A stretch of 26,200 nucleotides of DNA from a virus: IMG/VR virus record IMGVR_UViG_3300047472_000080, positions 1 through 26,200 of that record; one strand, given 5' to 3'. Shown in pieces: positions 18,057 to 26,137 of this stretch. The position numbers and the translations under genes are program-made. Positions within the stretch are counted from its first letter, which is position 1; the number at the start of each line of letters is the position of its first letter. A model generated the notes under the pieces. The model saw only the letters and a list, made by a program, of their open reading frames with translations, was not told where the DNA came from and ran no database searches.

Positions 18057-19778
18057 TTGAACTCCCGAGACATTCTCCGGGGGGACTTCCTGAAGTTCCT
18101 CTGGTTCGTCTGGACCCGGCTGCTGCTGCTGCCTGCGCCCACACGGATACAGCTCGACATCGCCCGCTTCCTGCAGGGTGGTCCGAAGCGCCGCTTCATC
18201 CAAGCCTTCCGAGGGGTCGGCAAGACCTTCCTCACCGCCGCCTATGTGGTCTGGCGGCTCTGGAACAACCCCGACCTGAAGATCATGATCGTGTCGGCCA
18301 ACGAGGCCTTCGCGACCGAGATCGCCTCCTTCATCAAGCAGATCATCGACCACGAGGTTGGTGACGACCTCTGGGCCGAGCTGCGTGCCCGCACGGGCCA
18401 GCGACAGTCCGCCCTGATCTTCGACGTGGGACCGGCCAAGGCCGACAAGTCCCCTTCGGTGAAGGCGGTCGGCATCACCGGCCAGCTCACCGGCTCCCGC
18501 GCCGACCTCGTCATCTCTGACGACGTTGAGGTGCCTAAGAACTCCGAGACGGAAACCATGCGCGAGAAGCTCGTGCAGAAGACCGCTGAGTACGCGGCTA
18601 TCCTGAAGCCGGGCGGCGAGATCATCTACCTCGGCACCCCGCAGAGCGAGCAGTCCATCTACCGGGCTCTCCCTGAGAAGGGCTATCAGGTCCGCGTCTG
18701 GCCCGCCCGCTATCCCCTGAAGGAGAAGCTGGCGAACTATGGCGGGTTCCTCGCGCCCCTCCTCATGGCAGACATCGCCGCGAACGAGGCCCTGCAGAAG
18801 CCCGAGGGTTCCACCTTGGGTGGCGCCGTCACCGATCCCAACCGCTTCAACGACCTAGACCTGATCGAGCGTGAGACGGAGTATCGGGGCGCGGGCTTCC
18901 TCCTGCAGTACCAGCTCGACACGACCCTGTCGGACGCCGAGCGTTACCCGCTCAAGACCCGCGACCTCATCGTCATGGACGTCGACCGCAAGGTTGCCCC
19001 CGGCCGAGTGGTCTGGGGCAGCTCACCTGAGCTGGCGATCAAGGACATCGAGAACATTGGCTTCGACGGCGACCGGCTCTTCCGGCCCATGCACGTCTCC
19101 TCGGAGTTCCTGCCCTACACCGGGGCTGCGATGCACATCGATCCCTCCGGCCGTGGTCGGGACAAGACCACCTATGTGGTCACCAAGTTCATCGCCGGGT
19201 TCATCTATGTGACCCGCTGGGGTGGCTTTCAGGACGGCTATGGGAAGGAGACGCTCGCGGCTCTCGCCCAGATCGCTGCCGAGGAAGAGGTCAACATCAT
19301 CGTCCCCGAGGACAACTTCGGTGACGGCATGTTCGGCAAGCTGCTCGAGCCCTACGTCAACGCCATCCGACCATGTCGGGTAGAAGGCGTCAAATCGAAG
19401 GGCCAGAAGGAAGTCCGCATCATCGGCACCTTGGAGCCCGTCATCCGCCAGCATCGTCTGGTGGTGGACGCCAACGTCTGCCGAGCGGACCTCAAGCTCC
19501 CTGCAGTCCACTCAGGGCTGTACCAGCTGACCCACATGACCTCCGCGCGTGGTGCCCTCAAGCATGACGACATGGTCGACGTCCTGGCCCTCGGGGTCGG
19601 ACACTGGGTCGACTACCTCAACGCCGATGCCCTCAAGGCAGAGCAGGAGCGCAAGGCTCGGTTCGATGCCGACTTCGAGCGCAAGCTGTTCGCCTCAACG
19701 GTCTTCGGGGCTCACCTCAAGAAGCCCTCAAGTCTGTCCGCACGGAGAGGCCGAGGGAGAGCCGTGGGGAGGCGATAA
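18057..19778 (+). CDS. Large terminase subunit (T7 gp19-like)
   Basis: This 573-residue packaging ATPase/nuclease starts with TTG at 18057 behind AAAGGAG; the T7 family start and reading frame both support it. Walker A is FRGVGKT (about 51-57) and a Walker B-like strand is ADLVISDDVE (about 149-158), the T7-type arrangement. The C-terminal nuclease has an acidic metal site at HIDPSGRGRDKTTYVV (Asp about 362) and another at KHDDMVDVLALGVG (about 500-510). It translocates DNA into the procapsid and cuts the concatemer. In T7 this is the last major gene before the right genome end, which matters for reading what follows here. Confidence 0.95.
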   Translation: MNSRDILRGDFLKFLWFVWTRLLLLPAPTRIQLDIARFLQGGPKRRFIQAFRGVGKTFLTAAYVVWRLWNNPDLKIMIVSANEAFATEIASFIKQIIDHEVGDDLWAELRARTGQRQSALIFDVGPAKADKSPSVKAVGITGQLTGSRADLVISDDVEVPKNSETETMREKLVQKTAEYAAILKPGGEIIYLGTPQSEQSIYRALPEKGYQVRVWPARYPLKEKLANYGGFLAPLLMADIAANEALQKPEGSTLGGAVTDPNRFNDLDLIERETEYRGAGFLLQYQLDTTLSDAERYPLKTRDLIVMDVDRKVAPGRVVWGSSPELAIKDIENIGFDGDRLFRPMHVSSEFLPYTGAAMHIDPSGRGRDKTTYVVTKFIAGFIYVTRWGGFQDGYGKETLAALAQIAAEEEVNIIVPEDNFGDGMFGKLLEPYVNAIRPCRVEGVKSKGQKEVRIIGTLEPVIRQHRLVVDANVCRADLKLPAVHSGLYQLTHMTSARGALKHDDMVDVLALGVGHWVDYLNADALKAEQERKARFDADFERKLFASTVFGAHLKKPSSLSARRGRGRAVGRR

Positions 19779-19782
19779 GGAG

Positions 19783-19809
19783 AGGGGTGGGGACAAGTGC
19801 CCCACCTCT
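19783..19809 (+). terminator. Hairpin just after large terminase
   Basis: GGTGGGG/CCCCACC with a seven-base loop, extended by three further pairs (one G-U), begins five bases after the terminase stop. There is no T-run, so it is either a weak or factor-assisted terminator or a 3' mRNA-stabilising hairpin at the end of the late operon. Confidence 0.45.
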
Positions 19810-20288
19810 ACCCACCAAGCTCCTGTGGGCATCTGCGGGTGAACCTGAAGGGGCTCTGCGGGGCTCCCCTAAGTAACCTTATATAATCCCACCCTCCAAG
19901 GGTGCGGGCTAATTGAGGTCGGTCACTTTTTGCTCAAAAATCCGAAGGGCCAAGCGCACAGCGCGAGACGCCGGGTGCCCCCCATGCCACCCCCGGCACT
20001 GAGGAGGCCCGGCCGTGCCCTAGGGGGCTCCTGCCCTGTCACTAGCGGTGCGGAATGGGTCGAAATGCTGCTTTCATTGGCACGATACGGTGTCACGATC
20101 ATGCTAAGTGCTTGATATTGCATAGGCCCATTCCCTCTGCATAGGGGAAGGCATGAGGTAGTCATGCCCTGCCAGCCCTGAGGGTGACGCCTAGGGCCGA
20201 TGGGGTGGCACTGCGGGGCGCCTGTGGGGCTCGCCTGCCGTCGCTTTCCTCTTCCCTCCGCTCTGCCCTGCTTTTTTCGTTTTGGCTT
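19810..20288. other. Gene-poor region after terminase, probable left part of genome-end junction
   Basis: No reading frame here has a Shine-Dalgarno or protein-like composition. Visible items are a small ACCCT-CCA-AGGGT hairpin (19891-19903) just after an AT-rich TTATATAAT patch, and scattered CCTNNGG heptamers (CCTAGGG at 20019 and 20190, CCTGAGG at 20177, CCTGTGG at 20221). There is also a direct repeat TGCATAGG at 20119 and 20138 (19 bp apart), the second half lying in a near-palindrome TTCCC...GGGAA. A T-run at 20271-20276 lacks a matching stem. In T7 the terminal repeat and right-end signals would lie at this position. Confidence 0.5.
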
Positions 20289-20376
20289 CCTACGGGCCAT
20301 CCTAGGGCAATCCTGCGGCAATCCTGCGGTCCATCCTGCCGTGCCCTGCGGGCTTCCTGCGGGCGCGATCCTAAGG
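20289..20376 (+). repeat. Helically phased CCTNNGG heptamer array (T7 SRL/SRR-like)
   Basis: Eight heptamers start at 20289, 20301, 20312, 20323, 20335, 20345, 20356 and 20370 (CCTACGG, CCTAGGG, CCTGCGG, CCTGCGG, CCTGCCG, CCTGCGG, CCTGCGG, CCTAAGG). The spacing is 10-14 bp, mostly 11, close to one helical turn. In T7, arrays of imperfect CCTAAAG heptamers flank the terminal repeat. The match in unit length, CCT start and position after the large terminase makes this a strong candidate for the equivalent end-processing or packaging signal. No reading frame explains the periodicity, because 11 is not a multiple of three. Confidence 0.75.
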
Positions 20377-20423
20377 AGAACATGGGGAGACGCTGAGGGG
20401 GCCGATGGGGAAAAATGAATGAT

Positions 20424-20431
20424 AGTTCCAC
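20424..20431 (+). promoter_or_regulatory. Half copy of the AGTTCCAC site
   Basis: AGTTCCAC matches the first eight bases of the repeated operator-like site and begins 17 bp before the full copy at 20441-20460, so the two would present on nearly the same face of the helix. It lies just upstream of the early promoter. Confidence 0.4.
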
Positions 20432-20440
20432 AAACCGCAC

Positions 20441-20460
20441 AATTCCGTTTGACAGACTGT
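20441..20460 (+). promoter_or_regulatory. Operator-like site covering the early promoter -35 box
   Basis: This copy matches the 20-base consensus AGTTCCACTAGACAGACTGT at 16 of 20 positions. Its TTGACA core is at the same time the candidate -35 hexamer (20449-20454). A protein bound here would block RNA polymerase, which is the expected place for a lysogenic repressor operator. Confidence 0.6.
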
Positions 20461-20478
20461 TTTTGGTTCGGCTAAAAG
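20449..20478 (+). promoter_or_regulatory. Sigma70-type early promoter
   Basis: A perfect TTGACA (20449-20454) is followed 18 bases later by TAAAAG (20473-20478); a 17-base spacer gives CTAAAA instead. The surroundings are AT-richer than the region average. It points toward the block of small genes and would be the host-polymerase early promoter of the T7-like programme. Transcription would start near 20485, giving a leader of roughly 310 bases. Confidence 0.6.
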
Positions 20479-20484
20479 CTAAAT

Positions 20485-20751
20485 CACCGCAGCGGCCCAA
20501 CGGCGCCAAGCGGTACGGCCAACCAACCCCGGCCAAGCATAGAGGGGATGGCGGAAGACCGAGGCCGAGCCCGTAGTGAGGGTGGCGCAGTAGGGCTCCG
20601 TGATTGCCAGCAAGCGGCAGGCGCAGCGTCGGATGACGCGGTGCCCTGAAGCGAACGCCCTAGGGTGGACACTGGCCAAACACAGCGGACGGCAGGGGCA
20701 AGCCTGAGGGGCCGCAAAGGAAACTGCGGGAGCAATCCCGCCGGTTCCTAG
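20485..20751 (+). ncRNA. Hairpin-rich untranslated early leader or small RNA
   Basis: Between the promoter and the first early gene there is no convincing reading frame. Several complementary segments are present: GAGCCC (20567-20572) with GGGCTC (20593-20598), TGCC/GGCA (20605-20619), GCGTC-GGAT-GACGC (20626-20639) and GCGGGA-GCAA-TCCCGC (20726-20741), the last closed by a GNRA tetraloop. These suggest a structured leader or stand-alone RNA. No known RNA class is recognised. CCTAGGG (20659) and CCTGAGG (20703) heptamers also occur, so part of it may instead belong to the genome-end signal. Confidence 0.4.
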
Positions 20752-20790
20752 AGGGGCGCTGCGGTGCCCTTCCAGCAACCGCAAAGGGGA
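20752..20790 (+). repeat. Two-hairpin leader element, copy A
   Basis: AGGGGC (20752-20757) pairs with GCCCTT (20766-20771), followed by CCAGC and a degenerate CCGC-AAA-GGGG. It shares its layout with copies B and C and lies just before the Shine-Dalgarno of the gene at 20797. Confidence 0.5.
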
Positions 20791-20796
20791 CTTCAC

Positions 20797-20973
20797 ATGA
20801 TCCGTTCGATCCGCCTCGCTCTTGCATGGCGCCGCTTCAATGCCGCCGATGCCCGCTTCCGTGCCTATCAGGGGATGGCCGCTGGTGCGGGCTGGAGCCA
20901 TGCCGTTGCATGCGCCCTGCGGTCTGACTTGGTACGCCACGAGCGCGCCCTGTCTCACCTCATCAACGCCTAA
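20797..20973 (+). CDS. Early small protein, unknown function
   Basis: This 58-residue basic helical protein begins MIRSIRLALAWRRFNAADARF and contains HAVACALRSDLVRHERALSHL. AAAGGGGA precedes the ATG at 20797 by about six bases, which favours it over the upstream in-frame ATG. It is the first gene after the early promoter, the place where T7-like phages carry host-takeover peptides. No family is recognised. An operator-like site follows its stop by one base. Confidence 0.65.
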   Translation: MIRSIRLALAWRRFNAADARFRAYQGMAAGAGWSHAVACALRSDLVRHERALSHLINA

Positions 20974-20974
20974 C

Positions 20975-20994
20975 AGTTCCACTAGACAGACCGA
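20975..20994 (+). promoter_or_regulatory. Operator-like site in intergenic gap
   Basis: This copy matches the consensus AGTTCCACTAGACAGACTGT at 18 of 20 positions. It lies between the stop at 20973 and the Shine-Dalgarno of the next gene and is oriented with transcription. Such placement inside an operon favours a stoperator or roadblock role over an initiation operator. Confidence 0.6.
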
Positions 20995-21005
20995 GGGAGT
21001 TCCCG

Positions 21006-21776
21006 ATGTTCCAGATCAATCCTGCCCTAGAGCCCGCACCCGCCGACATCGGCAAGGCAAACGGCGTCATCCTGTATCGCGGCCCTTCCAAGCTTGACGG
21101 GGCGCCGATTGTGGTGGTGGCAACCGGGCTCGCAAGGGGGAGCCGCAACGCTAAGACCGGCGCAATGGTGCAAACGTATATCCTGCGGGATGACATGCAC
21201 CCTATCGACGCGGTGCGGAGCGGCGCCGACGTTTCCATCTGCGGGACGTGTCCGCATCGCGGTGACGGGACGGGCAAGGGCCGCAGCTGCTACGTCACCC
21301 TAGCGCACGGCCCGCGCTCCGTTTGGGAAGGGCTGAAGCGGGGCATCTACCCTCGCGTTGACGCCTTCACGGCCCGCGCTCTCTTCGCTGGCAAGATGGT
21401 GCGTCTCGGCACCTACGGTGATCCTGCGGCGGCACCTAGGGCGCTCTGGAAGGTAGCCCTGAAGGACGCTGCGGGCTGGACCGGCTACACTCACCAATGG
21501 CGCACGGTGGAGTCGGAATGGGCCGCCCTAGTCATGGCGTCGGCCGATAGCGTGGCGGATATGGATGCGGCGCACGCTGCGGGCTGGCGGACGTTTCGCG
21601 TCACTGCGGAGCCCTTGGCGAACCTGAAGGGCCGCGAAGTCGTCTGCCCTGCCAGCGAGGAAGCCGGGAAGCGCACGGATTGCGCCAGCTGCAAGGCGTG
21701 CATGGGCACGGCAGGCAAGGCCCGCGTTTCGATCCAGATCGCAGCGCACGGCGGCGGCAAGCGTCACGTTCAATAG
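21006..21776 (+). CDS. Cysteine-cluster phage protein of unknown function
   Basis: This 256-residue protein is the largest early gene. It has two cysteine groups: C79-x2-C82 with C95 (SICGTCPHR...SCYV), and C214 with C226-x2-C229-x2-C232 (VVCPASEE...CASCKAC), suggesting zinc or iron-sulphur binding. Other marked motifs are NAKTGAMVQTYILRDDMHPIDAV, VRLGTYGDPAA and GWTGYTHQWR. From memory, proteins with these motifs occur in diverse phages and plasmids as a family of unknown function; I cannot confirm the family name. GAGGGAG precedes the ATG by about six bases. An enzymatic role acting on nucleic acid or metabolites is possible but unproven. Confidence 0.85.
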   Translation: MFQINPALEPAPADIGKANGVILYRGPSKLDGAPIVVVATGLARGSRNAKTGAMVQTYILRDDMHPIDAVRSGADVSICGTCPHRGDGTGKGRSCYVTLAHGPRSVWEGLKRGIYPRVDAFTARALFAGKMVRLGTYGDPAAAPRALWKVALKDAAGWTGYTHQWRTVESEWAALVMASADSVADMDAAHAAGWRTFRVTAEPLANLKGREVVCPASEEAGKRTDCASCKACMGTAGKARVSIQIAAHGGGKRHVQ

Positions 21777-21794
21777 TTCCACTAGACAGACTGT
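21775..21794 (+). promoter_or_regulatory. Operator-like site overlapping stop codon
   Basis: This is the copy that defines the 20-base consensus AGTTCCACTAGACAGACTGT. Its first two bases are the last two of the TAG stop of the preceding gene. It is oriented with transcription and lies 10 bases before hairpin element B. Confidence 0.65.
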
Positions 21795-21796
21795 CA

Positions 21797-21845
21797 CGAC
21801 CCGAAGGGCGCTGCGGAGGCGGCGCCTTTCCAGCCGCGACAGCGG
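21797..21845 (+). repeat. Two-hairpin leader element, copy B
   Basis: AAGGGCGC (21804-21811) pairs with GCGCCTTT (21822-21829), and CCGC-GACA-GCGG forms a second stem (21834-21845). The order, and the TTCCAG joining segment, are the same in copy C. It lies 30 bases upstream of the gene at 21876. RNA processing, transcript protection or attenuation are possible roles. Confidence 0.6.
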
Positions 21846-21875
21846 ATCAATCAATCACCGCCAATGGAGGCCAAA

Positions 21876-22109
21876 ATGTCCATCTGTATCCCTGACCGTG
21901 GCACTCGCTTTGCCGACATGATGCCCGGCGAGCGCGCCCGGTGTCTCGAGTTCGCCCGCTCCCATGATTGGGGTGACGGCGCCCGGTTCGATTGCGATTG
22001 GCGGATGCACGGCCTGCGGGACGTCTCCCACAATGAGCGGGACGGCTGGCAGGATATGCCCGCCTTTGCCGACACCCTCGGCGGCCTGCGCGATTGGGCG
22101 GGCTACTGA
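21876..22109 (+). CDS. Early small protein, unknown function
   Basis: This 77-residue acidic protein begins MSICIPDRGTRFADMMPGERARCLEF and is rich in Trp, Asp and Arg (SHDWGDGARFDCDWRMHGL, RDGWQDMP). GGAGG six bases upstream selects ATG at 21876 rather than the upstream ATG. It overlaps the next gene by one base (TGATG). No family is recognised; composition suggests a compact soluble protein. Confidence 0.7.
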   Translation: MSICIPDRGTRFADMMPGERARCLEFARSHDWGDGARFDCDWRMHGLRDVSHNERDGWQDMPAFADTLGGLRDWAGY

Positions 22110-22318
22110 TGGCCGGGCTCACGTTCCGCGAGGCGTCCGCCCGCGCCCTAGAGGCCGGTGCGACCGAATTGGACATCGCCCGCGAAGTCTCGGCCGTGAA
22201 GCGGGGTTCCTACGGGCCGCGCCCGATGGTCCGCGCCATGCGCCTCGCGCTCCAGCTTCACCCTTGGCGAAACACGGCGGCCGAATGGTCGCGCCTCGCC
22301 GCCACCCTCGCACGCTGA
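22109..22318 (+). CDS. Early small basic protein, unknown function
   Basis: This 69-residue helical basic protein (MAGLTFREASARALEAGATELDIAREVSA...) is coupled to the preceding gene through TGATG. TELDIAREVSAVKRGSYGPRPMVRAM could form a helix-turn-helix-like unit, but the match is weak. No family is assigned. Confidence 0.65.
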   Translation: MAGLTFREASARALEAGATELDIAREVSAVKRGSYGPRPMVRAMRLALQLHPWRNTAAEWSRLAATLAR

Positions 22319-22330
22319 AGGATCGAACCC

Positions 22331-22600
22331 ATGATGAACGTCACGCAAGCCCGCCGCTGCATCGCTGCGATCCCCTACGTCGCCGCCAAGCGCACGGACG
22401 GTGAATGGCGGATCGCCCCGACGTTGGAGGTTCTGCTCGCCATCTATCCGCATCGGGATCGGAAGTGGGCGAAGGCGAAGCAGGAGCGCGCCGCCGCCTA
22501 TACGGAGGACAACTCCGACGCGCATTTCACCGCCGCCGCCACGCATGGCTGGTGCGTCGTCCAGCTGCAGAAGACTGCCGCGAAGGAGGCCCGCAAGTGA
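22331..22600 (+). CDS. Early small protein, unknown function
   Basis: This 89-residue protein begins MMNVTQARRCIAAIPYVAAKRTDGEW and contains a basic helix (HRDRKWAKAKQERAAAYTED). AAGGAT lies upstream. It overlaps the following GTG start (GTGA). No membrane segment or known motif is visible. Confidence 0.7.
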   Translation: MMNVTQARRCIAAIPYVAAKRTDGEWRIAPTLEVLLAIYPHRDRKWAKAKQERAAAYTEDNSDAHFTAAATHGWCVVQLQKTAAKEARK

Positions 22601-22791
22601 GCGCCGCGCCGACCATTCACCGCATGTTCGTCAATCAGCCCTCCACCTTGCAGCCGCATCATGCCCTGCACGGAACGCGAGTGCGGGCGCACCGTGAAAC
22701 CGAGGCGGTCTGTCGCGTCTACTTCCTCGCCGGGCCGATTATCTCGCAGCAGCTGCCGAGCCTGTCCCTGTCGATGGGGTGGCCGGAATGA
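22597..22791 (+). CDS. Early small protein, GTG start, unknown function
   Basis: This 64-residue protein is read from GTG at 22597 (MSAAPTIHRMFVNQPSTLQPH...). AAGGAGG lies seven bases upstream within the previous gene, and the start overlaps that gene's stop. It is His/Arg-rich in the middle and ends LSLSMGWPE. Its stop overlaps the next ATG (ATGA). The continuous chain of overlaps supports a real gene. Confidence 0.6.
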   Translation: MSAAPTIHRMFVNQPSTLQPHHALHGTRVRAHRETEAVCRVYFLAGPIISQQLPSLSLSMGWPE

Positions 22792-22871
22792 GGCGCCGCC
22801 TCCGCGCCATCGTCTGGGCCATCGCCGTGCCCGCCAGCGCCGCCTTCTGGTGGTTCGCCCTTCCCTTCTGA
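22788..22871 (+). CDS. 27-residue membrane mini-protein
   Basis: This very short gene encodes MRRRLRAIVWAIAVPASAAF followed by WWFALPF: a basic N-terminus then one hydrophobic span with a tryptophan pair, a classic positive-inside mini membrane protein. ATG overlaps the preceding stop (ATGA). Hairpin element C begins shortly after its stop. Small membrane peptides are common among phage early genes and may affect host envelope or superinfection. Function is unknown. Confidence 0.5.
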   Translation: MRRRLRAIVWAIAVPASAAFWWFALPF

Positions 22872-22922
22872 CGCGACCCGAGGGGCGTGGCTCACGCTGC
22901 GCCCTTCCAGCCGCACCAGCGG
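22872..22922 (+). repeat. Two-hairpin leader element, copy C
   Basis: AGGGGCG (22881-22887) pairs with CGCCCTT (22900-22906), followed by CCAG and CCGC-ACCA-GCGG (22911-22922). Stem partners and the CTTCCAGCCGC joining segment closely match copy B. It lies 22 bases upstream of the next gene. Confidence 0.6.
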
Positions 22923-22944
22923 AACCCCCCAAAGGAGAATGAGA

Positions 22945-23160
22945 ATGGACGTCGAAGCCCTGCGGCTGTCGCTGGCCTGTGCCCGCAACGCCGTCAACGC
23001 CGCCTTTTCGGACATCGAGCATGCCTACACGGACCAAGGCCCGGTCGAGCGTGTCGCGTTCATCCGCAAGCATCACGAGCAGACGCTGGCGTCCCTGCAC
23101 GCGGCGACCCGCCATTTCGTCATCGCCCGCGACATGGTGCTGGCAGGGGAGGAAGCCTGA
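22945..23160 (+). CDS. Early small helical protein, unknown function
   Basis: This 71-residue protein (MDVEALRLSLACARNAVNAAFSD...) is almost wholly helical, with amphipathic spacing. AAAGGAG is seven bases before ATG 22945 but only one base before the alternative ATG at 22939, so 22945 is chosen. It overlaps the next gene by one base (TGATG). No family is recognised. Confidence 0.7.
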   Translation: MDVEALRLSLACARNAVNAAFSDIEHAYTDQGPVERVAFIRKHHEQTLASLHAATRHFVIARDMVLAGEEA

Positions 23161-23348
23161 TGCGCTATCAGCCCGCTATCCGCACGACCGCGCCCGAAAC
23201 CGTCCGCGCCCAGCCGGGCCAATGGATCGCCTACGGGTCCGCTCGGGGACGCTACATGGGCCAGCGCAACGGCTGCGCGTGGATCGCTTGGGGTGACACC
23301 GCGCGGCGCCGCTTCCCGGCCTTCGCTGCCACCTTCCGGGCCGCCTGA
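23160..23348 (+). CDS. Early small protein, unknown function
   Basis: This 62-residue basic protein contains RAQPGQWIAYGSARGRYMGQRNGCAWIAW, a beta-rich stretch with an SH3-like or small-barrel look. GGGGAGG precedes the ATG, and both ends overlap neighbours by one base. No function is assigned. Confidence 0.65.
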   Translation: MRYQPAIRTTAPETVRAQPGQWIAYGSARGRYMGQRNGCAWIAWGDTARRRFPAFAATFRAA

Positions 23349-23485
23349 TGGCGCACGCCCTGTCCCTCCTGCCCTTCCTCGGCGCTGGCCTGCTGGCCGC
23401 GTCACAAATCGCCCTGGCCCTTTCCGATCCTGCCGTCTGGCAGGCGCTCGGCCTCACCCAAGGAGACACCCATGACCACCTGTGA
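23348..23485 (+). CDS. Small membrane protein, unknown function
   Basis: This 45-residue protein begins MAHALSLLPFLGAGLLAASQ and continues IALALSDPAVWQALGL, with one or two short hydrophobic segments. The start overlaps the previous stop (TGATG), and its 3' end overlaps the next gene by 14 bases in another frame. It could be a membrane peptide or a leader for the next gene. Confidence 0.5.
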   Translation: MAHALSLLPFLGAGLLAASQIALALSDPAVWQALGLTQGDTHDHL

Positions 23486-24005
23486 GCGCACCTATCCGAT
23501 GATGCAGCGCCTCCTGCTGCACCCTGAACTGTTCGACCGCGAGAGCCTGCGGGTGACCGGCGCTCAGCTGGTCGACGGGCATTGCATCCCGGTCGCCAAT
23601 GACTGCGCCGAGGGCGTCATCTGGTCGGTCGTCGCGACCACCTCCAGCGGCCACACGGTGACCGTCGCGGACTGCGACACGATGCCTGCTGCAGGTGCGT
23701 TGGTTCGGCGCCTGCGCCGGTTCACCTCAATGGTCACCGGGGCGGACCTGATCGACGCTGCGGCGTGCCTTTGGGAGGCTGCGCTTGAGCTGAAGGGCTC
23801 CCCGCTGATCGCCCCGGCCATCGAGCGTTTTGGCACGGCCGAGGTTCGCACCGCAGTCGTCCGCCACGCTGCCGTCTGCCACCTCCAGTGGGTCGAGGCG
23901 GTCGAGGAAAGCGGGTACGATGACGCCTTCGATTGGGAGTGGTGCCCGAAGTTCCTGACCGAGCGATTGGATTGGTCAGCGGGCCTACCCTTTCTTAAGG
24001 TTTAG
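23472..24005 (+). CDS. Early protein of unknown function
   Basis: This 177-residue protein (MTTCERTYPMMQRLLLHPELFDRE...) is the last gene of the small-gene block. AAGGAG precedes the ATG. The first half looks beta-rich (VIWSVVATTSSGHTVTVADCDTM). The second half is helical (TGADLIDAAACLWEAALELKG, VRTAVVRHAAVCHLQWVEAVEE) with an acidic Trp-rich end. Cysteines are scattered, without a metal-binding pattern. No family is recognised. Confidence 0.75.
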   Translation: MTTCERTYPMMQRLLLHPELFDRESLRVTGAQLVDGHCIPVANDCAEGVIWSVVATTSSGHTVTVADCDTMPAAGALVRRLRRFTSMVTGADLIDAAACLWEAALELKGSPLIAPAIERFGTAEVRTAVVRHAAVCHLQWVEAVEESGYDDAFDWEWCPKFLTERLDWSAGLPFLKV

Positions 24006-24185
24006 AACTCGTTAACGTTTGTAGTGGTAACGTAGCGTTGTGTTGCACGAATGTTACGACGCTACGGAGAGCGGGGGCTCTCAATCTCCGGGCTTGCAAT
24101 GTAGGATTTCGTTTGTTCTAGCATTGTTCGCTTCGGGGTCGTCCAACGCACACCGGGGGTATTAACGGATGGTTAGGCACTGGAC

Positions 24186-24204
24186 ACGGAACGATCAGTT
24201 CCGT
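24186..24204. promoter_or_regulatory. 19-bp palindromic operator candidate
   Basis: ACGGAAC-GATCA-GTTCCGT is a perfect inverted repeat with seven-base arms, about 100 bp upstream of the MarR-like gene. MarR-type dimers bind palindromes of this length, so autoregulation is a natural inference. Its right arm overlaps the asymmetric operator-like copy at 24197. Confidence 0.6.
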
Positions 24205-24216
24205 TAGAGGGACATT
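24197..24216 (+). promoter_or_regulatory. Degenerate operator-like site upstream of regulator
   Basis: AGTTCCGTTAGAGGGAC matches the 20-base consensus at 14 of 20 positions, strongest in AGTTCC and TAGA. It shares the right arm of the 19-bp palindrome. This is the weakest of the plus-strand copies. Confidence 0.4.
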
Positions 24217-24304
24217 GTGACTATGGGAAGTTTCGGTCGGTGGTCGGTGCAGGGCGCTTCGGCGAAGTGCAGCGTCGGCATGGCAACAAGCGTGGAGGTG
24301 GACT

Positions 24305-24766
24305 ATGCTCGCGATGGAAAACGCAAAAGCGAAGACAGGGGCGAAGCGAATGACAGGGGGAACGACGAGGTCGAAGAGCGACCCGCTTTTCAAGCACGTA
24401 GGCGCGTTGGCCGACTTTTCTTCGGCGCTGATCTCCCTTGCTCAAGCGGCGCCGGATCGGATGACGATGTCACAAGGCGTCTTCTTCCTTCTCGCGGCAG
24501 GTGCTGACCTCGCGGGCAGGCCAACCACATTCACGGAAATCCGTGAGACGGCCGGGCCGAGCATCAATCGCAGCATGCACACCACCTACAAGGTACTGCT
24601 GGACGAGCCGTTAGAGCGCGTTGATGCACCTCGGCAGAAGTGCCTCGGCTGGCTCCAGCGCCACACAAACCCACTGAACGGTCGGGAGAAGTTCCTGACG
24701 CTCACCCCGAAGGGCCGCGAGATCATCCGCGAAGTCCTCTCGGCAATCACCGGAGAAAACCTCTGA
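24305..24766 (+). CDS. MarR-like winged-helix regulator
   Basis: This 153-residue protein has a basic N-terminal arm (about 1-25), a helical segment (30-50) and a winged helix-turn-helix. The HTH is about 55-100 (MSQGVFFLLAAGADLAGRP, TFTEIRETAGPSINRSMHTTY). A wing about 118-133 (QRHTNPLNGREKFLTLTPKG) carries the MarR-style 'L-T-x-K-G-R' ending. GGAGG seven bases upstream supports ATG at 24305. Its stop overlaps the integrase start (TGATG), so the two are co-translated. It is the best candidate for the lysogeny repressor or an integration regulator in this window. No DNA-binding specificity can be read directly. Confidence 0.72.
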   Translation: MLAMENAKAKTGAKRMTGGTTRSKSDPLFKHVGALADFSSALISLAQAAPDRMTMSQGVFFLLAAGADLAGRPTTFTEIRETAGPSINRSMHTTYKVLLDEPLERVDAPRQKCLGWLQRHTNPLNGREKFLTLTPKGREIIREVLSAITGENL

Positions 24767-26052
24767 TGGCTGACATCAAGACCAAGCCGAACGGCATTCA
24801 TTATCTCGAGGTGCGCGTGCCGGGGCCGGACGGCGCCCTCAAGCGCCAGCGCATATCCTGCGACACCCGCGACATGGACGAGGCGAAGCAGCAGAAGGGC
24901 CTGTGGCTCGCTGGCCTGCACCCTCAGCACCCCGCGCAGGGCGGCGTCGTCGCACCCAAGAGGCGCGGCCATGTCGGCAACAGTTCCACTGGACAGATAG
25001 TGCGTCAAACGGAAGGCGGCCTCACGGTCGAGCAGCTGATGACGCGCTGCCTGACGGAACGGAAGGTCTGGGGCGCGTGCCGCGCGAAGCGCACCCATGA
25101 GAGCAACGTCCGCATCATCGCCCGCATGCTGCCGACCAAGCTGCCGCTGGCAGAGCTGTCGACCCAGCACGTCAAAGACCTGAGCGCCGCGATGGCCGAG
25201 GCGGGCTACGCTGACGCATCCCAGAGGAAGCTGCTGGGCTCCCTGTCGGCCGCCTGCCGGTTCGCTGAGGACGAGGGCCTGATCCTGAGCCGCCCGCGCT
25301 TCCCCTCGATCCGCGTGGAGAACGTGCAGGACCGCGTCGTGAGCCTCGACGAAGAGGACGCCATGCTGGCTTGCATCGACGCCCGCATCGACGCTGAGCC
25401 GCTCCGCGCTTGGTGGGCCTTCAAGCAGCTGGTCGTCCTGCTGCTCGACACGGGCTTCCGGCTGGGCGAGGGCCTGCAGTGCGGGCCGTCGAGCGTGAAG
25501 CGCAAGCGGTGGCTGGATCACCGTGGCCGGGCCAGCGAGGGGACGTGGCTGGGCCTCCAGCGCGGCACCACCAAGAACATGAAGCCGCGCGACGTGCCCT
25601 GCACCCAGCGTGTCCTTCAGCTACTCCCAAAGCTGAACGAGCGGGCCGCTGGCGGGCGCTGGTTTCCGTGGCCGCTGGGCTCGTCGGGTCCGCTCTATCT
25701 CCTGCAGTGCATCCGGCAGGATATGGCGGCCAAGGGCTTCGCGTTCGAGGACGTCAAGCTGCACACCTTCCGGCACACCTGCGCTACCCGGCTGGCCGAG
25801 GGCGGGATGGATTTGGTGTCCCTGCGGGATTGGCTGGGGCACTCGGACATCAAGATCACGGCGGCCCGCTACGTCCACCTGATGAACGGCCACATCTATC
25901 GCGGGGCTGCGATCCTAGATGTCTATGGACCCGGTCACTCAATTGGAGCAGATGCGGGAAATGAGGACGAGGAAGAGACTAACCACTCCACTGGAAATAC
26001 TCTGTCTAATGGAAGGGATCGTGGCGAGCCTGTCACGATGGGTGTCTGCTAA
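24766..26052 (+). CDS. Tyrosine recombinase integrase
   Basis: This 428-residue integrase has an N-terminal arm-binding-like beta domain (1-50: KPNGIHYLEVRVPG, KRQRISCDTRD), a variable linker (about 52-85), a core-binding SAM-like domain (about 86-175) and the catalytic domain. Catalytic residues fit the family: R232 (DTGFRLGEGL), K270 (TTKNMK), H333 and R336 (HTFRHTCATRL), H359 (WLGHSD) and nucleophile Y369 (ARYVHL). A 59-residue tail follows Y369; its last part is Asn/Glu/Gly-rich and AT-richer, and may not be conserved. The start overlaps the regulator stop. An operator-like site lies within the linker codons. It would integrate the circularised phage at a host attB. Confidence 0.93.
   Translation: MADIKTKPNGIHYLEVRVPGPDGALKRQRISCDTRDMDEAKQQKGLWLAGLHPQHPAQGGVVAPKRRGHVGNSSTGQIVRQTEGGLTVEQLMTRCLTERKVWGACRAKRTHESNVRIIARMLPTKLPLAELSTQHVKDLSAAMAEAGYADASQRKLLGSLSAACRFAEDEGLILSRPRFPSIRVENVQDRVVSLDEEDAMLACIDARIDAEPLRAWWAFKQLVVLLLDTGFRLGEGLQCGPSSVKRKRWLDHRGRASEGTWLGLQRGTTKNMKPRDVPCTQRVLQLLPKLNERAAGGRWFPWPLGSSGPLYLLQCIRQDMAAKGFAFEDVKLHTFRHTCATRLAEGGMDLVSLRDWLGHSDIKITAARYVHLMNGHIYRGAAILDVYGPGHSIGADAGNEDEEETNHSTGNTLSNGRDRGEPVTMGVC
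24982..25001 (+). promoter_or_regulatory. Operator-like site inside integrase gene
   Basis: This copy matches the 20-base consensus at 17 of 20 positions and encodes residues 72-78 (NSSTGQI) in the low-constraint linker of the integrase. Its occurrence where codons are free to vary supports selection for the DNA site. Confidence 0.55.
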
Positions 26053-26137
26053 GTGCCTGAAATCATTGGGGCACGTCCCCTCACCCGCTCCATTATCCGA
26101 CAAAATCCGGTGGCTGCGAGGGCGATCCTTGGGCTAG
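25919..26137 (+). CDS. Possible small gene overlapping the integrase 3' end
   Basis: In a second + frame this 72-residue reading frame (MSMDPVTQLEQMREMRTRKRL...) overlaps the last 134 bases of the integrase gene and extends 85 bases beyond. It looks protein-like: a helical start, a hydrophobic helix (LEILCLMEGIVASLSRWVSA) and a basic end. No Shine-Dalgarno is visible before either ATG (25919, 25925). It could be a real overlapping gene or chance. Confidence 0.3.
   Translation: MSMDPVTQLEQMREMRTRKRLTTPLEILCLMEGIVASLSRWVSAKCLKSLGHVPSPAPLSDKIRWLRGRSLG

Follow-up and report, generated by a model that had tools for sequence, protein, structure and literature searches.

Dispersed sites in the early region of a T7-like phage

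The window analysed here, 26,200 nucleotides (nt) of IMG/VR virus record IMGVR_UViG_3300047472_000080 (positions 1 to 26,200), carries the T7-like terminase large subunit gene (terL; protein TerL) of a phage and, beyond it, an early region. There, the gene for a MarR-like winged-helix regulator, our proposed repressor (24305..24766, + strand; 153 amino acids), adjoins that for a tyrosine integrase (int; 24766..26052, +; 428 amino acids; Pfam PF00589, E 1.1e-12; 62% identity in the relative L019). Scattered over the early region are about eight copies of a short site, which are the subject of this study. The RNA polymerase (RNAP) gene falls outside the 26.2-kb record, and the window ends before it, so that part of the site set is out of view.

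A sequence-only reading of the window had reported six copies of a 20-bp sequence and a half copy at 20424, all of which we verified in position and identity. The scores below come from a 17-nt weight matrix built from 22 sites of six relatives (L023, L026, L028, L038, L044, L049), with the window sequence excluded. The half copy (20424..20440, +; AGTTCCACAAACCGCAC; score 14.0, rank 7) is weaker and stands in tandem, at a 17-bp step, with the copy at 20441..20457 (+; AATTCCGTTTGACAGAC; 16/20 identities, score 18.3), the presumed operator of the early promoter. The latter does cover a TTGACA box, as had been claimed, yet a consensus sigma-70 scan makes no call at this box (20448), which leaves its role as a promoter unproven. 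Two copies sit at gene ends, again as claimed: that at 20975..20991 (+; AGTTCCACTAGACAGAC; 18/20, score 23.8) begins 1 nt past the stop of the open reading frame at 20797-20973 and lies 14 nt before the start at 21006, and the reference copy (21775..21791, +; score 23.8) overlaps the stop codon of the gene at 21006-21776. The copy preceding the MarR-like gene (24197..24213, +; AGTTCCGTTAGAGGGAC; 14/20, score 18.2) lies about 90 bp upstream of it and has an inverted partner at 24215..24231 (-; ACTTCCCATAGTCACAA; 14/20 as an inverted match); this pair is a possible autoregulatory operator. In the integrase gene, a copy lies in a linker about 215 nt from the start (24982..24998, +; AGTTCCACTGGACAGAT; 17/20, score 16.5), adjoined by an inverted one at 25000..25016 (-; CCTTCCGTTTGACGCAC) that scores 10.9 with the relatives-only matrix and 18.4 with a window matrix. 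The last copy is inverted and stands at the end of the integrase gene, beside the candidate phage attachment site (attP; 26000..26016, -; CCTTCCATTAGACAGAG; score 21.4, with 15/20 identities for the 20-mer at 25997).

Three copies of the 20-mer with at most 3 mismatches occur in the window, versus none in 100 dinucleotide shuffles. Judged on identity alone, the copy at 24197 (14/20) does not stand out, and a late minus-strand sequence at 19473 also reaches 14/20. When the relatives-only matrix was run over both strands of the 26.2 kb, its top seven matches were 21775+, 20975+, 26000-, 20441+, 24197+, 24982+ and 20424+ (23.8 to 14.0), the very positions that had been picked from the sequence, whereas the best match in the 19.8-kb late region scored 12.8; the late region of some 20 kb, where none had been noticed by eye, holds no comparable site. 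Maxima in the shuffled early region averaged 9.9, with a largest value of 15.6. The relatives-only matrix rules out chance repeats as the origin of the copies, and we conclude that the repeats are real and stand at the positions given. We made no use of 13 exact 16-mer matches in IMG/VR, a number close to the chance level for a collection of that size. One property had been misread: the sites were described as asymmetric, but they are imperfect palindromes of 14-17 bp with a strong 5' half, the form to be expected if the binding protein is a MarR dimer and not a repressor of the L5 type.

Site sets in related phages and prophages

TerL and integrase searches supplied the IMG/VR relatives. Copies in Sphingomonadales chromosomes came to light with the integrase and with a profile of the MarR-like protein. 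The MarR alignment was too little conserved to serve as a query of the collection, and the integrase alignment was used in its place. Profile matches L146, L147, L148 and L153 were dropped, having no neighbouring integrase of this kind. A blind search for dispersed repeats between TerL and RNAP found that most of the examined T7-like phages in which a MarR-like gene adjoins an integrase gene have a repeat of their own, usually on the transcribed strand. Named phages with such a set are S2B, LUZ100, Pasto, RHEph01, RHEph21 and jiawei, and sets also occur in Sphingomonadales chromosomal prophages; no motif was obtained for L131. The repeats include ACTTCCATTAACCCGAC in L044, ACTTCCACATAAACGAC in L026, ACTTCGATTAGCCAGAC in L028, AGTCCCAGAGACGGGAC in L035, AGTTGCGTCAGTCCATC in S2B and ACTTCCACAAAACAGAA in the chromosomal prophage L144, where the motif was clearest (L144/G038, log10P -18), while LUZ100 (AACTATCCACTGGCGCA) and Pasto (TAGTCACTCAAGGGTGAC) have unrelated motifs. 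Many sites are imperfect palindromes, such as the forms with a strong 5' half in L031 and L104 (TTCCACCTAGTCGAA) and in L035 (GTCCCAGAGACGGGAC), which again fits a dimeric winged-helix protein. The co-conservation of motif and regulator that the sequence-only reading proposed to look for is present, with site sets accompanying the MarR-like gene in most of these phages.

The same places recur from phage to phage: early promoters, positions directly past stop codons (regularly that of RNAP), a point in the integrase gene some 200 bp from its start and, often in inverted orientation, the vicinity of its end. For S2B, with its GenBank genes, 12 of 14 sites are intergenic although only 15% of the sequence is (p ~1e-8), 13 of the 14 lie on the transcription strand, and every one falls among the early and middle genes, within the first 17 kb, leaving the late structural genes free. 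Strand counts over whole records (14/4, 3/13 and 0/9) likewise show sites lying mainly in one direction. The S2B homologue of the window gene at 21006-21776, gp064, likewise has sites on both sides. Matrices trained on the early regions of S2B, LUZ100 and G038 brought up further sites 0-5 nt from stop codons. Such matrices favour the region on which they were trained, a bias that the relatives-only matrix and matches from outside the training region escape. Among the latter are four strong sites in S2B, 1-5 nt past the stops of RNAP, gp050, gp046 and gp041, and LUZ100 sites that are no more than 2 nt away from the stops of RNAP, gp14, primase and capsid. The complete prophage G038 has 12 sites; five of these lie -1 to 5 nt after a stop codon and 13-14 nt before the next start, and single ones lie 1 nt past the RNAP stop, inside int and, inverted, at the int end. 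The replication and structural genes, over 33 kb, and the adjoining host DNA are free of sites.

Individual positions are shared widely. Sites upstream of the MarR-like gene are found in S2B (3948+/3965+) and L044 (4858-) as well, and a site 135-216 nt into int in S2B, L044, L019, G038 and others. An inverted site stands at the int end in L019, L038, L044, L049, L130 and G038, and just after int in LUZ100. A site-like sequence past the RNAP stop recurs among the examined phages with both a MarR-like gene and an integrase, whereas two lytic relatives have the ribosome site of the next gene at this position instead. Applied as a rule, this position exposed in jiawei a palindromic set, CCATGYAAACATGG, overlooked by the blind search. 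In LUZ100, dispersed sites occupy the 17-bp spacers that separate the -35 and -10 boxes of P1 and P2, two host promoters that have been mapped, which fits repression. As a separate observation, the integrase linker at 24982-24998 and in relatives varies in protein sequence apart from one serine, whose codon is the TCC of the site; this suggests a constraint at the DNA level within this coding region. L164 (Roseobacter phage CRP-227), which has a MarR-like gene and an integrase, carries a palindrome, CTAACCGAAATGAGTTAG, after its RNAP stop.

A candidate repressor and rival explanations

Site sequence varies together with the regulator. Of the 17 phages for which there is a motif, TTCC stands at positions 3-6 in 12 and is lacking there in the other 5; exactly two columns of the MarR-like protein, H92 and F76, separate these classes. 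In the five phages without TTCC, H at position 92 gives way to N, K, K, A or E, and F at position 76 to Y, Y, M, P or L. No column does so in the integrase (0 of 370), TerL (0 of 555) or RNAP (0 of 805, from nine sequences). L028 and L035, which by TerL identity fall among the TTCC phages, provide the clean contrasts. An AlphaFold monomer model of the regulator (predicted local distance difference test score, pLDDT, 76) places H92 within helix 91-98, the recognition helix, and F76 at the beginning of the preceding helix, 76-83. The best 50 Foldseek matches of this model in the PDB were mostly named MarR-family regulators (probability near 1), at modest levels of similarity (best E 3e-3; template modelling (TM) score ~0.5). 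As modelled, then, the regulator has the MarR winged-helix fold, although it stays below the curated family model (Pfam HTH_27, 12.6 bits versus a cutoff of 22.2).

Our computations establish that the sites exist, and further their conservation, positions, orientation, covariation with the MarR-like protein and difference from phage promoters, as well as the presence of integrated prophages. We think it likely that the repeats are binding sites of the regulator encoded at 24305-24766, which we predict to keep a temperate T7-like phage repressed as a prophage by means of operators and stoperator-like roadblocks. This reading is favoured because the sites are conserved together with the MarR-like gene, covary with its putative DNA-binding residues, are oriented with transcription, lie at gene ends and are absent from the late structural genes. 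Each pseudo-palindrome of 14-17 bp would be bound by a dimer of the regulator. The sites found at the early host promoter and ahead of the regulator gene would serve as ordinary operators. The stoperators would be single sites that directly follow the stops of early and middle genes, lie within int or come immediately behind the RNAP gene; at these, bound repressor would halt transcription begun elsewhere, whether by the polymerase of the host or, perhaps, by that of the phage. With read-through halted, no phage RNA polymerase would be made and lytic growth would not start; in an infection without repressor, the sites would be free and transcription would pass. The idea put forward from the sequence, stoperator-like silencing of the early operon, is supported as to operators and stoperators but not as to confinement to that operon, since the sites of relatives reach the RNAP and replication genes.

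Several points weigh against this reading. Binding, its dimeric mode, the blocking of transcription and the role in lysogeny are all steps that we infer. The independent contrasts behind the covariation number about two (L028 and L035), because S2B, L145 and L154 are divergent lineages. Some relatives, namely L020, L021 and CRP-227, have no clear dispersed set, the blind search coming up empty in the first two, and at the site after RNAP in L023, L026, L107, L110 and L117 only the 5' half matches well. Late-region counts from early-region-trained matrices are partly biased, as noted above. The number of sites, 8-14, is below the 20-30 of cluster A mycobacteriophages. Finally, the blind repeat score does not tell temperate from lytic phages: the lytic controls 3MF5 and PlaquesPlease reach a log10P of about -10 through other repeats, and we discarded this score as a test of temperateness.

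A narrower role for the regulator seems unlikely to us. Only the promoter-proximal copies (20424/20441, 24197/24215 and those before the RNAP gene) would then be working MarR operators, and the gene-end copies would store or buffer the repressor, or make the prophage more compact, but leave transcription running. This reading matches the published proposal of MarR control at the promoter upstream of RNAP in the LUZ100 paper, and operator-like pairs are present at these places; what becomes hard to explain, unless the sites act on elongation, is the fixed spacing from stop codons, the orientation with transcription and the recurrence of sites after RNAP and inside int across unrelated motifs. 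The sequence-only reading had weighed, and argued against, promoters of the phage polymerase and integrase arm sites, and our results disfavour both. Of all the explanations considered, we give the least credence to promoters of the T7-type RNA polymerase, which the sites recall in their length of about 17-20 bp, their placement in gene gaps on the transcription strand and their CACTA. The experimentally mapped phage promoters of LUZ100, AATTACCACACAG...TGG, are a different motif from its dispersed CTATCCAC, and in L026, L028, L031 and L044 a cognate promoter, CAATTAMCCYCACCMTCGG, lies 15-60 bp beyond the dispersed site. Promoters of this kind would not be expected to be missing from late genes, to occur inverted or to lie inside the LUZ100 host promoters P1 and P2, and none of the RNAP columns varies in step with the site sequence.

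Arm-type binding sites of the integrase would account for the copy in int, for that at the int end, about 70 bp from the attP core, and for the further sites that relatives have between attP and RNAP. We nonetheless regard this origin as highly improbable for the set as a whole: in the window the copies extend as far as 5.6 kb from attP and, in S2B, to about 10 kb beyond int, and integrase columns do not follow the site sequence, although the copy beside attP may have a dual role. Signals acting in RNA, for processing or antitermination, would suit sites that are mostly on one strand, directly past stops and before ribosome sites; inverted copies, copies in host-promoter spacers and covariation with a DNA-binding helix make such a role equally hard to credit. 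An alphaproteobacterial LexA-type box (GTTC-N7-GTTC) was also tried and rejected, as its second half misfits and S2B is without it.

Known systems, the integrated form and neighbouring features

Stoperators have been described in cluster A mycobacteriophages such as L5 and Bxb1 (Mavrich and Hatfull 2019, PMC6550527). Like these, the sites of the window phage group are numerous, dispersed and oriented with transcription, some at promoters and most elsewhere (8 in the window, 14 in S2B, 12 in G038), and their consensus is phage-specific and varies with the repressor. Unlike the cluster A system, the regulator here has a MarR fold, the phage is T7-like with its own RNA polymerase, and the sites are 14-17-bp pseudo-palindromes instead of 13-bp asymmetric sequences. 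T7-like phages were long regarded as strictly lytic. MarR control of lysogeny in LUZ100 and Pasto, which share with the window phage a MarR-like gene beside the integrase and a proposed repression of RNAP, was put forward earlier, with sites around the promoter upstream of RNAP (Putzeys 2023, PMC10134795, citing the original Pasto paper, Boeckman 2022). In the parts of that model accessible to us, sites are placed only there, unlike the dispersed gene-end sets that both genomes carry, and the LUZ100 paper text names no dispersed gene-end repeats. A literature search combining stoperator and Autographiviridae returned only unrelated work, and the dispersed network appears to be undescribed in the accessible literature, Boeckman 2022 excepted. 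The nearest named relatives, Caulobacter phage S2B (MN857473) and jiawei (OR464703), are both annotated as Autographiviridae and both have the gene order early genes, MarR-like gene, integrase, RNAP, with sites at matching places; their site sequences, AGTTGCGTCAGTCC and CCATGYAAACATGG, differ from that of the window.

A set of sites that covers the polymerase gene as well as gene ends and host promoters would offer a concrete, testable answer to how a phage with its own potent RNA polymerase keeps silent, and would carry the stoperator principle over to another, unrelated group of phages and another fold of repressor. It would also give a simple rule for locating the repressor site in new temperate T7-like phages, which is to look just past the stop codon of the RNA polymerase gene; for the window phage, a site close to AGTTCCACTAGACAGA is predicted there.

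Prophages or related elements of the MarR-integrase type are present in Sphingomonadales chromosomes or contigs (L144, L145, L154, L131), which points to this order as the likely host group of the window phage. Those of L145, L131 and L154 lie beside tRNA-Ser genes at their int end, and the candidate attP core of the window (26082..26091, +; CACCCGCTCC), which corresponds to the 3' end of a tRNA-Ser gene, is identical over 10 bp to the tRNA-Ser beside the integrated L145 prophage. The integrated form has RNAP at one edge and int at the other (G038; G969 contig). The RNAP gene of G038 is on the same strand as MarR-int and about 40 kb away; integration therefore parts RNAP from the early promoter. 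Sites in direct orientation ahead of RNAP and the inverted one at the int end face inward, a layout suggesting that edge sites may guard against read-through from the host. It is possible, if doubtful, that the MarR-based stoperator system as a whole insulates the prophage, with edge sites blocking transcription from the flanks and gene-end sites stopping the host polymerase and the single-subunit phage polymerase alike.

Other features of the window can be noted briefly. The early gene at 21006..21776 (+), which has sites on either side, gives a weak match to DUF7227; this corresponds to PHROG 2554, of unknown function, and is found too in large Roseobacter phages and mycobacteriophages. TerL (18057..19778, +) is 65-67% identical to its counterparts in Caulobacter phage S2B and phage jiawei. 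About 100-130 bp past the terL end, at 19880-19920 (-), a phage-promoter-like sequence, CAATTAGCCCGCACCCTTGGAGGGTGGG, faces back to terL, and the same element occurs, also inverted, 100-650 bp after terL in L019, L026, L028, L031, L033, L035 and L044; it could be an antisense promoter, a replication start or a terminator hairpin. Between terL and the first early gene, a GC-rich stretch (19800-20780) contains degenerate CCTGCGG/CCTAGGG-like repeats. Similar repeats lie near the genome ends of S2B, jiawei, Pasto and L023, and the stretch is perhaps part of a terminal repeat or packaging region.

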